Positions 44,112 to 49,728 of a stretch of DNA of 64,000 nucleotides are shown here, one piece after another. Both the position numbers and the translations under genes were made by a program. Where the stretch lies: the NCBI RefSeq assembly GCF_019039255.1, contig NZ_CP077062.1, positions 620,001 to 684,000 on the forward strand, written 5' to 3'. This DNA is from Nocardioides panacis. Lineage in GTDB: Bacteria > Actinomycetota > Actinomycetes > Propionibacteriales > Nocardioidaceae. The notes beneath the pieces were generated by a model. The model did not search any database and was not told the DNA's origin. It saw nothing but the letters and a program-made list of their open reading frames with translations. Numbering within the stretch: position 1 is the stretch's first letter; each line of letters begins with the position of its first letter.

Positions 44112-45401
44112 CTAGGGCGCCAGCCGGTGCAGGTCGCGCGGGAACAGCGTGACCTCCCGGACGTTGGCGGCCCCGGCCAGCCGGGACACCCACCGCTCGA
44201 GCCCGATGGCGAAACCTCCGTGCGGCGGGACGCCGTACCGGAAGGCGTCGGTGTAGGAGGTGTACGCCGCCGGGTCGTGGCCGCGCGCGGCCAGCGTCTC
44301 GACGTAGTCGGCGTGCCGGTGCAGCCGCTGCGCGCCGCTGACCAGCTCGACCCCCCGGAAGATCAGGTCGAACGAGCGCGACCAGTGCGGGTCCTCGGGG
44401 TCGGGATGGCTGTAGAACGCCCGGCTCGCGGTCGGGTAGCCCTCCACGACGACCAGGTCGCTGCCGTGCTCGCGCAGCCCCCAGGCCCCGACGGCCCGCT
44501 CGTGGGCGGGGGACAGGTCGGGCTCGTCGGCCGGGGCACCGGCGACCTCCAGGGCCTCGCGGAAGTGCAGCACCGGCAGCTCCGCGGGCACCACGGGTAC
44601 GTCGATCCCGAGCAGGCGCACCGCCTCGGACGCGTGCTCGTGCACCGCGGCCACCATCCCCGCGACCACGTCGCGCAGCACCGCCACGACGTCGCGGTGG
44701 TCGCGGACGAACCCGAGCTCGACGTCGAGCGAGACGTACTCCGCGAGGTGCCGCACGGTGTCGTGCGGCTCGGCGCGGAACACCGGCCCCACCTCGTAGA
44801 CCCGCTCGAACACCCCGACCAGCACCTGCTTGTAGAGCTGCGGCGACTGGGCGAGGTAGGCCGGCCGCCCGAAGTAGTCGACCTCGAACACGTTCGCGCC
44901 GCTCTCGGTGGCCGAGCCGACCAGCTTGGGGGTGTGCACCTCGGTGAAGTCCCGGGCGTCGAGCGTGTCCCGGAAGCCCCGGAGGCTGGCCGCGGCGAGC
45001 TTCCAGCGGGCCTGGCGCACCGGGTGCCGCAGGCTCACCCCGGCGTGGTCGAGCTGGGACGGCAGCCCCGCGGTCAGGGTCGGCCGCCAGAGCTCGACCG
45101 GCGGCGTCTGGGCGGGGTCGGTCAGCGCCTCGAACACCGGGTGGACCACCTCCACGCCGCCCGGCGCGGACGCGTTCGCCGCGACGGTGCCGGTGACCGA
45201 GACGACGGTCTCCTCGCCGTACCCCGCGACCGCGGCCAGCGTGGTCGGGTCCTTGACCACCACCTGGGCCAGCCCGGACCGGTCCCGCAGCACCACGAAC
45301 GTGACGCCGGACAGCGCCCTGCGGCGGTGCACCCAGCCCTGGATCGTGACGGTCGAGCCCGGCTCGTGGCCGGTCAGCCCGCGTGCGAGTGTGCGTTGCA
45401 T
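44112..45401 (-). CDS. aspS: Aspartyl-tRNA synthetase, short archaeal-type (AspS2-like)
   Basis: 429 residues from ATG 45401 (MQRTLARGLTGHEPGSTVTIQGWVHRRRALSGVTFVVLRDRSG). An OB-fold anticodon domain (about 1-105) is followed by a class II core: motif 2 YEVGPVFRAEPHDTVRHLAEY, motif 3 GGFAIGLERWVSRLAG. It lacks the GAD insertion of the 590-residue bacterial AspRS, so it is of archaeal/eukaryotic or nondiscriminating type, or possibly an AsnRS. The SD lies inside a hairpin and the leader is a T-box with a GAC specifier, which points to Asp. A standard bacterial AspRS is expected elsewhere in the genome; this may be a stress or resistance copy. Confidence 0.88.
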   Translation of the reverse strand: MQRTLARGLTGHEPGSTVTIQGWVHRRRALSGVTFVVLRDRSGLAQVVVKDPTTLAAVAGYGEETVVSVTGTVAANASAPGGVEVVHPVFEALTDPAQTPPVELWRPTLTAGLPSQLDHAGVSLRHPVRQARWKLAAASLRGFRDTLDARDFTEVHTPKLVGSATESGANVFEVDYFGRPAYLAQSPQLYKQVLVGVFERVYEVGPVFRAEPHDTVRHLAEYVSLDVELGFVRDHRDVVAVLRDVVAGMVAAVHEHASEAVRLLGIDVPVVPAELPVLHFREALEVAGAPADEPDLSPAHERAVGAWGLREHGSDLVVVEGYPTASRAFYSHPDPEDPHWSRSFDLIFRGVELVSGAQRLHRHADYVETLAARGHDPAAYTSYTDAFRYGVPPHGGFAIGLERWVSRLAGAANVREVTLFPRDLHRLAP

Positions 45402-45630
45402 CGCTTCACCTCCTGAAGGAACCCCAGGAGGTGTGGGCGACGGGGGAGCTCGCTGTGCCACCACACCTTCGTCGTGACCGGACCGGCCGCGACCTCGTTG
45501 CTCGTGCTCTGCTCGGGAGTGTCTTCGTCGCCGCGACGGACCCCGCCCTCTCAGCAGTGCCTTCTCAGGCCGGGCGGTTCTCTGTGCTCCGTCGGTCGGC
45601 GACTACTCGTCTCCGTCCACGCATTGCCCG
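45402..45630 (-). promoter_or_regulatory. Translational T-box riboswitch, Asp (GAC) specifier, aspS leader
   Basis: Read 5' to 3' on the minus strand. GGAG (45611-45614) pairs with CUCC (45516-45519). Between them and the next stem GUCGCC/GGCGAC (45598-45603 / 45527-45532) is a 7x7 specifier loop: ACGAGUA (45604-45610) opposite GAAGACA (45520-45526), in which GAC (45521-45523) is an Asp codon. An AGAGA bulge (45579-45583) and a CCGCCC/GGGCGG stem form the distal part. The antisequestrator GGUGUGG / CCACACC holds the UGGC bulge that would pair with the GCCA end of tRNA-Asp. Its 3' strand overlaps CACCUCCUG, which otherwise pairs perfectly with CAGGAGGUG and hides the SD (45407-45415 / 45425-45433). 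Confidence 0.85.
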
Positions 45631-45640
45631 GAGCCTAGCC

Positions 45641-48600
45641 TCAGTGGACGGTGAGGGCACGCGAGTTGTTGCCGCCGTGGGTGCCCTCGTCGACGCCGAC
45701 GGGAATGACGGTGAGGTCGACCTGGCTGACGCCCGGGTGCCGGTGGGCGAGCCGGGTGTCGACGTAGAACGCGCCCGCGGTCGCGGTCCCGACCCCCGTG
45801 CAGGTGGCGTAGAGCCCGTTGGTGGCGGCGTTCCCGGACGCGTCGCTGGTGTAGCAGTCCACGTTCCCCTCGCCGTCGGCGCCGCTGGCGCCTTGGGCGA
45901 AGTGGGTCTGACCGGTCCCGAGCCCGGCGTCGGCACCGCCCAGCCGCAGTCGGACCGTGGTGGCGCCCGGCGGCACGCCGCTGACGGAGACCCGGACCGA
46001 GGCGTACTGCGTGCTGTCGGCGGTCTGGGTGACGGCGCCCAGCACGACGTCGGGGGCCAGCGTGGCGGTGACGCTGTTGTCGGCCGGTGCCAGCTCGACG
46101 TACGGCGCGACCGGTGCGAGGTCGACGGTCACCGGGGTCGCGGCCCGGGGGTTCGCCGGCGTGAGCGTGAACGTGACCACGTGCCCGTCGGCGGGTCCGG
46201 TGCAGGTGACCGTCGTGCCCGACAGGCTGCACCCGGTGCCGGTCACGGCGGTCGGCGCCGCGCCGGTCACCGTGTAGCGCACCGAGCCGAGCCCGGGACG
46301 GACGCCGCTCATCGTGGTGGCCACCCGGTAGGTCGTGCGGTCGGCCTGCGGGGCCGGGTCGGCGGGCGTCGGCGGGGAGGTGGCCAGGTCGACGCCGGGG
46401 GTGAGGCCCGCGATGCTGCCGGACTCGTTGCCCGGGCTGGTGTCGTCGTAGCCCGCGGGCACGTCGAGCGCGATCGTCACGTCGGGCCGGGTGGTGCCGT
46501 CGGCGTCGACCGCGAAGTCGACGGCCCGGGCGCTCCCCAGGTCGCCGCACGAGACGGTCCGTGCGTCCTGGACGGTGCAGCCGGGGTCCTGGCCGGCGGT
46601 CACGAAGGAGCCGCCGGTGAGCCGGAAGGTCAGCCGGTCCACCGCCGCCGGGACCGCCGCGACCCGGCTGCGCAGCGTGTAGTGGTCGGTGCCGCCGGTG
46701 ACGGTGTGTCCGACCTGGGTGAGGGCGCCCATCGAGAAGTCGTGGGCCGCCGCCAGGGAGCCGGTCGCGGTGCCGGACGTGCCGAGCTGCTCGAAGTCGC
46801 CGCCGGGGGCGACCGAGACGGTGAGCGGTGTGGTCCGTGCCGGGGTCGCGGAGCGGACGGTGAACCTCACGTCGGCAGGCACCGGCGCCGGGCAGGTGAG
46901 GCCGCCGGGGGTGCTGGTGCAGCCCGGCGTGGACGAGCCGGTGACCGTGGTGCCGTCCCCGACGGTGTAGGTCACGCCCGGCACCCCGGAGCGGACGTCC
47001 GAGAGGTGCAGCGTCACCGGGTAGTCGCCCTGCGCGGCGTGCAGCGCGCCCAGGTCGGACGGGGTCAGCGCCAGCGCGCTGCCCGGGCGCACCGTGACCG
47101 GCCTGGTGGTGTTGTTAGAGGTGTCCGGGTCGTCGAACGGGTCGCCCGGCAGCAGCGTCACCGACAGCGGGTGCGCCGAGGGGGCGGTCGACTCGACCAG
47201 CAGGGCGAGGCGCTCGCCCTCCACCAGCGAGGTGCAGTGCACCGTGCCGCCGGTCGTGCGGCAGCGGCCGTCGGGCTGCGAGGCGGCGAAGCTGCCGCCG
47301 TCGGTGACCGCGAAGTCGGCCGAGCTGCCGCTGGACGGGAGCGGGCCGACGACCCCGGTGAGCGTGTAGCGGTCGGTGTCGCCGGACACGGTGTGCGCGG
47401 TGACGGTCGGGTCGCCGAAGGCGTAGTCCTGGGTAGGGCGCCCGGGCAGCGTGACGCCGACCGCGTGCGGGCCGTCACCGACCGCCTCGAACGGCGCCGC
47501 CGGGACCACCGAGACGGTGACCGGGGTCGGACGGGTGGCGTCGGCGGCCAGCAGGCTCACCGTGAGCGGGCCGTCGGACGGCGGGCAGGCCATCGTGGCG
47601 CCCGCGACGCTGCAGCCGTCGTTGCCGGCGCCGGCGAAGGTCGCCCCCGACGTCACCGCGTAGGTCACCGAGCCCAGGCCGGCCCGCGTCCCGGTGAGCC
47701 GGCCGTCGAGCTCGACCAGCCCGTCCCGGCCGGGGTTCGCCGACAGCACCGACAGGTCGAGCCCGAGGTCGGCGCCCGGGGCCAGCGTGAGGGTGTCGGT
47801 CCGGTCGTCCGGCGTGGTGTCCACGACGTCGTCGAGCGAGGAGACCGCGACGGTGGTGGCGGTGGCGCCGGTCAGCCCTCCGGCGTCGACCGGGAGGGAC
47901 ACGGTGTCCCCGCGCCGTACGGCGGGACAGCGCAGCACCGAGCGGTCGTCGGAGGCGGTGCAGCCCTCAGCGTCGGCGGGACGGAACCGGCCCGGGCCGG
48001 TGAGCTCGTAGCGCAGGCCGGTGACCCGCGGCGGCAGCGACGCGGTGGTCCCGAAGCGGAAGTGGTCGACGTCCCCGGTGACGGTGTGCGCGTCCGGGCC
48101 GGTGACCCGCAGCGCCGCGAAGTCGTACGCCGCCGGGCGGGCCGGCCGGAAGCTCCGGACCGCGCCGCTGGAGCCCGCCTGCCCGTCGACCGACACCTGG
48201 ACCGAGACGTCGTCGGAGACCATGTAGCCGGGGAAGTCCAGCGCCAGCCTGATCGTGTAGTCGCCGATCACCACGGTGGGGACCGCCTGGCCGCCACCCT
48301 GCAGGTCGGCGGCCCCCGGCGTGCACACCGCGTGCCGGCCGCTCACCACGCGGCAGGAGGCGTCGGTGGCCGGGTCGGTCAGCGTGGTCTCGTCGGAGAC
48401 GAGGCTGACGTCCACGACGTCGTCCGCGCGGAGGTTCCGGGTCTCCACGGTGACGAACCCGGCCGGGTCGACGACCGGGTCCCCGATGAACCGGTCGGGC
48501 AGGGCGGCGGGCTCGACGGTGTCCGACACGGCCGGCTCGCCCGGGGCCTCCGTGGACAGGGCGCCCGGGGCCCCGGTCGGCGCGTCGGTCGGCAGCACCG

Positions 48601-49728
48601 GGAGCGCGGACACGGTCGTGCTGGGGGCGACCGCGGTCGGCGGTGCCCCGGGGGTGGTGGTGGCCGGGGCGCCCGGGCTCCTGCTCGGCCGGTCGCCGGG
48701 CGAGGCGCCGGGCGAGGCGCCGGGCGAGGCGCCGGGGGACGCCGGCGCGGTGGTCACGGTGCCGCGCGACGGGTCGGCGACGACCTTGTCCGGGGACGGG
48801 CCGCCCGTGGTGATCACGACCGCGGCGACGGCGGCCGCGGCGCTCACGCCGGCGGCGACCCCGGCGGCGGTGGCCACCCCGGTGTGGGCGAGCACGAGGT
48901 CCTTGGCCCGGGACAGCAGCCCGACGAGCCCGGCCGCGCCGGCCCCGCCGCTGGCGAGGTAGCCGGTCGCGGCGGCGCCGAGCAGCAGCGGGCCGATGAT
49001 GCCGGCCAGGTTCGAGTTGACCTCGTTGAGCTCGAGGTACATCGCCGTGCACCGGCGGCAGCCGTCGAGGTGCTGCTGCACCTTGCCGGTGTCCCGCTTG
49101 GACAGCCCCGACCGGATGAACGCGCCGAGGTGCTCGTTGACCCACCGGCAGTCGGTCTCGGTCAGGTCCGAGATGTGCATGGTCAAGAAGGCCTGGCGGA
49201 GCCCCTCCCGGGCCCGGTAGGCGAGCGCGGACACCGAGTTCGCGCTCATCCCGAGCAGCGGGGCGATGTCGGCGGGCTTCTGGTCCTCGACCTCGAGGTG
49301 CCAGAGCACGAGCTGCCACCGCTCGGGCAGCGAGGCGAACGCCTTCGCGGCCGCGCCGCTCTCGAAGCCGGCGACGGCGGTGTCCTGGAACGGCACGCCC
49401 GGGTCGAACGGCGTCAGGTCGTCGGTGGTGTGCAGCCGCTGCCCGGCGCGCAGCCGGTCGACGTGCAGCCGGCGGACGGCGGTCAGCAGGTAGGCGCGGA
49501 AGGCGACGTCCGGGCCGCCACCGCCCTGCAGCACCACGAGCACCTTGGCGAACGCCTCGGAGACCAGGTCGTCGGAGTCGGGGCCGCGGACCAGCTGGCG
49601 GGCCAGCCGGTTCGCGGCGGCCTGGTGCCGGCTGAACAGGTCGCCGTAGGCAGCGACGTCCCCCCGCGCACGCGCGAGATCAGCTCGGCGTCGCTGGGCG
49701 TGTCTACGTCGCTCAGGAGATCGGTCAT
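45641..49728 (-). CDS. Giant ECF sigma factor fused to zinc-finger, membrane and extracellular repeat domains (frameshifted)
   Basis: Restored length 1,362 residues from ATG 49728 (MTDLLSDVDTPSDAELISRVRGG). A six-C run at 49660-49665 needs one more base to read RVRGGDVAAYGDLFSRHQ. Sigma2 is about 14-90, sigma4 about 130-182 (LPERWQLVLWHLEVEDQKPADIAPLLGMSANSVSALAYRAREGL). A ZAS-like finger follows with Cys194, His220, Cys224 and Cys227 (HLDGCRRC), then membrane segments at about 243-272 and 283-307, a Pro/Ser/Thr linker, and some 1,000 residues of beta-rich DUF11-like repeats, most with a GC...C cysteine pair. The layout suggests a membrane-held sigma factor released by a surface signal. The promoter targets are unknown. 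Confidence 0.85.
48693..48740 (-). repeat. 12-bp tandem repeat in the ECF sigma linker
   Basis: Four copies of GCGCCGGGCGAG or close variants (48693, 48705, 48717, 48729) encode the repeated SPGA units of the linker after the membrane segments. In-frame, so copy changes would only lengthen or shorten the linker. Confidence 0.85.

Follow-up and report, generated by a model that had tools for sequence, protein, structure and literature searches.

The window analyzed in this study is a 64,000-nucleotide stretch of Nocardioides panacis DNA (contig NZ_CP077062.1). Positions 44112..45401 on its minus strand encode AspS2, a 429-aa archaeal-type aspartate--tRNA(Asn) ligase whose scores of 532 and 379 bits exceed the cut-offs of the protein families NF003483 (353) and TIGR00458 (368), in agreement with an earlier note on this DNA, which had called the enzyme archaeal-type from the sequence alone. 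The best solved relative of AspS2 was the non-discriminating archaeal-type AspRS2 (entries 1n9w and 3kfu), and AspS2 aligned with 1n9w at GWVH/GFLH and APGG, positions at which the enzyme of entry 3nel carries W and K. The histidine and proline at these sites of the anticodon-binding domain are what we take to be the mark of a non-discriminating AspRS. AspS2 is predicted to be a second, archaeal-type, non-discriminating AspRS. A bacterial AspRS family match was obtained in 58 of 58 genomes, above the cut-off in 55 of them, including the genome under study (G000:C1:1295363-1297096). Because a bacterial-type AspRS is also present, the switch described below would control an extra, or spare, AspRS; the earlier note, which referred to control of aspS, was correct insofar as the archaeal-type aspS2 lies downstream, but this gene is not the only aspS of the genome. 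The genome also carries GatB, no AsnRS above the cut-off was found in it, and the cell probably makes Asn-tRNA from Asp-tRNA(Asn). The gene upstream of the leader (45641-49543, minus strand) exhibited, by eye, a sigma-factor-like N-terminus followed by approximately 1000 residues of repeated secreted-type domains.

Structure of the aspS2 leader

A leader of approximately 230 nt lies on the minus strand between the upstream gene, whose stop codon is at 45643-45641, and the start codon of aspS2 (45401-45399). Judged from its sequence, the segment 45628-45402 is a translational T-box riboswitch ahead of aspS2. Its elements, all on the minus strand, follow one another in the order TAGGCT box, Stem I, a linker of only 14 nt, Stem III, antisequestrator, and a hairpin, CACCUCCUG/CAGGAGGUG, that covers the Shine-Dalgarno (SD) sequence. 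The TAGGCT box (45632..45637), a −10-like TANNNT box 5' of Stem I, was conserved in relatives; it was located 8-11 nt 5' of the common alignment point in 25 of 25 aspS2 leaders, and no second TANNNT box was found within the 72 nt scanned in these leaders. This near-fixed distance makes a transcript start at Stem I very probable.

Stem I (45507..45628) is of the long form, with a kink-turn-like base, a specifier loop, and a distal bulge. The specifier loop is a 7x7 internal loop, ACGAGUA (45604..45610) opposite GAA-GAC-A (45520..45526), enclosed by the helices GGAG/CUCC and GUCGCCG/CGGCGAC; the minimum-energy fold agreed with this reading, and the AGUA of the 5' side was invariant in 25 relatives. 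The 3' side contains the specifier triplet GAC (Asp; 45521..45523), which was kept in related leaders. In the distal (AG) bulge, AGAGA (45579..45583), four of the five positions were invariant in relatives and the fifth was almost so. The leader lacks Stem II and the IIA/B pseudoknot, as do many relatives; both elements are also missing from glycyl T-boxes (PMC7583486). The tRNA affinity of the leader is uncertain because of this absence.

Stem III (45471..45493), a covarying helix with GUCG/CGAC ends, has GAG on its 5' side and GAA on its 3' side (GAGGUCG...CGACGAA), and thus exhibits the 5' purines and 3' AA of this element. The antisequestrator (45430..45467) consists of the helices GGUGUGG/CCACACC and GCGA/UCGC flanking a 7-nt T-box bulge, UGGCACA, in which UGGC (45457..45460) complements the 3' GCCA of tRNA-Asp. 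The sequestrator hairpin (45407..45433) contains the SD sequence GGAGG (45409..45413) and is closed by a 9-bp stem in which 45433-45425 pairs with 45415-45407, extended in the computed fold to 12 bp including G-U pairs. The segment CACACC is common to the antisequestrator and the sequestrator, and the two folds are mutually exclusive, both being conserved. Direct reading placed the 7x7 loop, the GAC triplet, the AGAGA bulge, the UGGC bulge, and the 9-bp SD-hiding stem exactly where the earlier note had described them.

Conservation and covariation

At the Rfam gathering score, which is a threshold of the library rather than a biological definition, no match was obtained across the window. A permissive scan with the Rfam T-box model RF00230, which the earlier note had proposed for the leader, matched Stem I only, with 19 bits (E 0.03) and therefore under the gathering threshold of 93. 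The ileS T-box of the same genome scored approximately 30 bits, also below the threshold, and none of 15 actinobacterial leader loci used as a comparison set yielded a gathering-score match. Because the ileS T-box and these 15 leaders were all missed, the RF00230 threshold is non-discriminating in this phylum.

We then used covariance models built from relatives, with the genome under study excluded. The Stem I model (R1; 25 relatives) matched the site with 72 bits (E 2.6e-18), the runner-up elsewhere in the window scoring 16 bits, and the model of the 3' module (R2) matched 45516-45402 with 89 bits (E 4.4e-20), with no second match in the genome beyond the aspS2 leader. These E values, obtained with models derived only from relatives, place the site beyond chance. 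Both-side changes were identified in 17 of 24 Stem I pairs, and the covariation of Stem I exceeded that of every one of 500 shuffles and of every slid control. For Stem III, such changes were present in three of four pairs in the A2 alignment. Among 18 relatives, the antisequestrator was paired in 100% of the cells and the sequestrator in 94%, with compensating changes at the innermost counted pair of the latter. Folding energy compared with shuffled sequences was uninformative (z −1.38).

Of 58 related genomes searched for the AspS2 protein, 33 gave a match, and 30 loci were fetched. A leader carrying GAAGAC and the TGGTGGCAC box was present in 26 of these 30 aspS2 loci, with the specifier loop, GAC, and UGGC kept. 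In the earlier note, the T-box reading was said to fail if an Rfam match were lacking and the homologous leaders were also unconserved; the homologous leaders are conserved and covary, and this objection fails. GAC occupied the long-Stem-I position in 26 of the 27 T-box-bearing fetched aspS2 leaders, and the variable base of the T-box bulge was C in 51 of 52 leaders. For the aspS2 genes of at least two relatives, L006 and L022, no T-box was detectable.

The form of Stem I differed among relatives. Some genomes combine a long Stem I ahead of aspS2 with Stem II and a IIA/B-like segment. The aspS2 leaders of many Nocardioides, as well as those of Oerskovia, Myceligenerans, and Actinotalea, matched R2 strongly and R1 not at all; their Stem I consists of a short hairpin, typically GAGG-NNUGACRAN-CCUC, whose loop contains GAC. 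Ultrashort Stem I hairpins with a UGAC loop were observed approximately 75-100 nt 5' of the T-box bulge at loci L096-L115 (except L098 and L103), L118, L122, and L123; the ultrashort-form aspS2 leaders share a conserved CCGCGCGU-NCGGCGUACCGACGAGAGG segment, which may be a small IIA/B-like pseudoknot. At L137 (genome G182), an ultrashort Asp-type T-box with GAC precedes a bacterial-type aspS rather than aspS2. The aspS2 leader of an Acidimicrobiaceae MAG (L121, ~2820-2936) carries a short Stem I (GGAGAUGGACCCUCC) and a segment resembling a Stem II S-turn and IIA/B, and is possibly an intermediate Stem I form.

Predicted specificity for tRNA-Asp

The tRNA-Asp of the genome has the anticodon GUC and the 3' end G73-CCA. 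Both fit the leader, the anticodon matching GAC and the 3' end matching UGGC, and this supports specificity for tRNA-Asp; the pairing of the fourth base of the bulge, C, with the discriminator G73, which the earlier note had pointed out, thus applies to the organism's own tRNA. The GAC triplet also fits the aspartyl-tRNA synthetase gene downstream. Since the tRNA-Asn of the genome likewise carries G73, the specifier alone separates Asp from Asn.

R1 was also run against 395 genomes of the class to find sister T-boxes, the downstream genes being named from N-terminal sequence. Leaders with GAAG-AUC-A and UGGU were identified before IleRS-reading genes. At L072 (genome G279; the same locus as L139), a GAA-UCC-A specifier and UGGC precede a SerRS-like gene, in what is apparently a Ser-specific translational T-box. 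The specifier and the bulge therefore shift together with the gene, which supports the T-box reading. A further R1 match, L077 (genome G112), is a UCC-type Stem I fused to a SerRS-like C-terminal end with the T-box bulge absent, and looks like the leftover of a deleted serS copy. Alignment from the 5' side with the ileS sequence GAAG-AUC-A would give a specifier frame of ACA (Thr); this frame was rejected, since the serS sequence GAA-UCC-A shares the frame of GAA-GAC-A and the ultrashort hairpins read U-GAC-R. The retention of GAC across Stem I architectures provides the strongest support for the predicted Asp specificity.

Discussion

Sequence and comparison show the elements of the leader, how far these are conserved and covary, the fit to the tRNA, and the gene; from them we infer tRNA binding, switching, the start of transcription, and a physiological role. 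With a probability of roughly 0.93, we consider the leader to be a tRNA-Asp-specific translational T-box that would switch aspS2 on when uncharged tRNA-Asp accumulates. The RNA would start just 5' of Stem I, which would read the anticodon GUC of tRNA-Asp through GAC, while the distal AGAGA region would probably contact the tRNA elbow. The free 3' GCCA of an uncharged tRNA would pair with UGGC and stabilize the antisequestrator GGUGUGG/CCACACC; CACACC would thereby be drawn off the sequestrator CACCUCCUG/CAGGAGGUG, the SD sequence would be exposed, and aspS2 would be translated. Charged tRNA could not pair with the bulge, and the more stable sequestrator would keep translation off. The computed fold of the 106-nt 3' part had an energy of −47.6 kcal/mol with the sequestrator versus −36.9 kcal/mol with the antisequestrator forced, suggesting that off is the default state. 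The outcome would be induction of a second AspRS as the charging of Asp-tRNA drops. The proposed mechanism parallels that described for actinobacterial ileS (PMC1262725; PMC7583486).

The choice of tRNA deserves the most attention among the alternatives. A member of the aspartate--tRNA(Asn) ligase family, the enzyme is predicted to charge both tRNAs, and the switch might accordingly sense mainly tRNA-Asn, or tRNA-Asp together with tRNA-Asn. The presence of GatB, the lack of an AsnRS above the cut-off in the genome, and the G73 of tRNA-Asn are in keeping with this idea, as is the B. cereus lysK T-box, which answers partly to tRNA-Asn (PMC2916919). However, the specifier is GAC, and not AAC, in leaders with a long Stem I as well as in the ultrashort hairpins, and its frame is set by the sister T-boxes (UCC with serS and AUC with ileS); we therefore regard sensing of tRNA-Asn as unlikely.

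The remaining alternatives concern whether and at which level the leader acts, and both appear less probable still. A T-box-derived leader that has lost its function here and persists merely as a constitutive structured 5' UTR would explain the missing Stem II and IIA/B and would be in line with the loss of the T-box in some relatives, but no contact element is damaged in the window, and the same elements are retained under covariation in many relatives that lack Stem II, which renders such a relic very improbable. Transcriptional attenuation might be expected from the fact that the majority of T-boxes regulate transcription (PMC7583486). At this locus, however, no U-run follows the competing hairpin, the SD sequence is located within that hairpin directly 5' of the start codon, its pairing is conserved, and actinobacterial ileS T-boxes also act on the SD (PMC1262725); of all these alternatives, we give attenuation the least credence. 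The conserved competition between the SD sequestrator and the antisequestrator thus bears out the translational output that the earlier note had proposed for this tRNA-Asp-specific T-box.

Second synthetases elsewhere in bacteria are inhibitor-resistant or stress copies (reviewed in PMC9437257), and in B. cereus an archaeal-type LysRS is under T-box control (PMC2916919). The patchy occurrence of aspS2, next to a bacterial AspRS in every genome searched, would fit a possible backup role. Since the cell apparently makes Asn-tRNA through Asp-tRNA(Asn), a switch acting on a spare AspRS would protect the supply of two amino acids. A broader proposal, to which we give somewhat less than an even chance, is that Actinobacteria possess an undescribed family of Asp- (and Ser-) specific translational T-boxes that induce spare synthetases. 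Stem I would have been rebuilt more than once in this family (from long with Stem II, through long without it, to an ultrashort GAC hairpin) around a nearly constant switch module, and the enzymes may be inducible backups against synthetase inhibitors.

The T-box class is known; the combination of this specificity, the phylum and output, and the target is probably undescribed. The literature on actinobacterial translational T-boxes names ileS only (PMC1262725, PMC7583486), and a literature search, with the TBDB tables outside its scope, returned no account of a T-box on aspS from either Actinobacteria or Nocardioides. The models of TBDB have been applied to the phylum, and the database gives GAC specifiers overall, its main text not breaking them down by gene and phylum, so an existing unremarked entry is quite possible. 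The novelty that the earlier note had supposed probably holds for this phylum, but not for T-box control of aspS2 as such, since a Firmicute example exists (see below). If our reading is correct, actinobacterial translational T-box control reaches beyond ileS to tRNA-Asp and apparently to tRNA-Ser, and the Rfam threshold conceals a whole set of actinobacterial T-boxes. The aspS2 leaders form a natural series in which the tRNA-reading part is shortened and specificity retained, so that the separate contributions of Stem I and Stem II become directly testable.

Among known systems, the actinobacterial translational ileS T-boxes, such as that of Nocardia farcinica, share with the aspS2 leader the competition of an SD sequestrator with an antisequestrator, the T-box bulge, the Stem I specifier, and the phylum. 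They differ in carrying AUC and UGGU where the aspS2 leader carries GAC and UGGC ahead of a second aspS, and the N. farcinica ileS leader has a short Stem I with Stem II and IIA/B, in contrast to the long Stem I with AGAGA and without Stem II described here. The genome under study has a second T-box of the AUC and UGGU type before ileS (L001, ~1493-1705, near G000:C1:2420530-2420742). The canonical, mostly transcriptional RF00230 T-box has the AGUA/GAA specifier loop, AG bulge, UGGN bulge, and Stem III in common with the leader, whose output is translational and whose score is far below the gathering score. Closest in target is the Firmicute Paenibacillus dendritiformis (L124, 2604-2824), in which a T-box with an apparent GAC specifier also precedes an archaeal-type aspS2; unlike the leader described here, it has a terminator with a U-run and is transcriptional, carries UGGU, and exceeds the RF00230 threshold with 128.6 bits. 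Saad et al. (2012/2013; cited in PMC4206432) are said to have described T-box control of tRNA-dependent amidation in Clostridium acetobutylicum. That system, in which aspS2 takes part, also has a T-box acting on the ND-AspRS/GatCAB route to Asn-tRNA and differs in its Asn/Glu codons and its Firmicute host. The B. cereus lysK T-box (PMC2916919), although specific for Lys, acting by antitermination, and found in Firmicutes, likewise places a second, archaeal-type synthetase under T-box control beside a bacterial-type copy.
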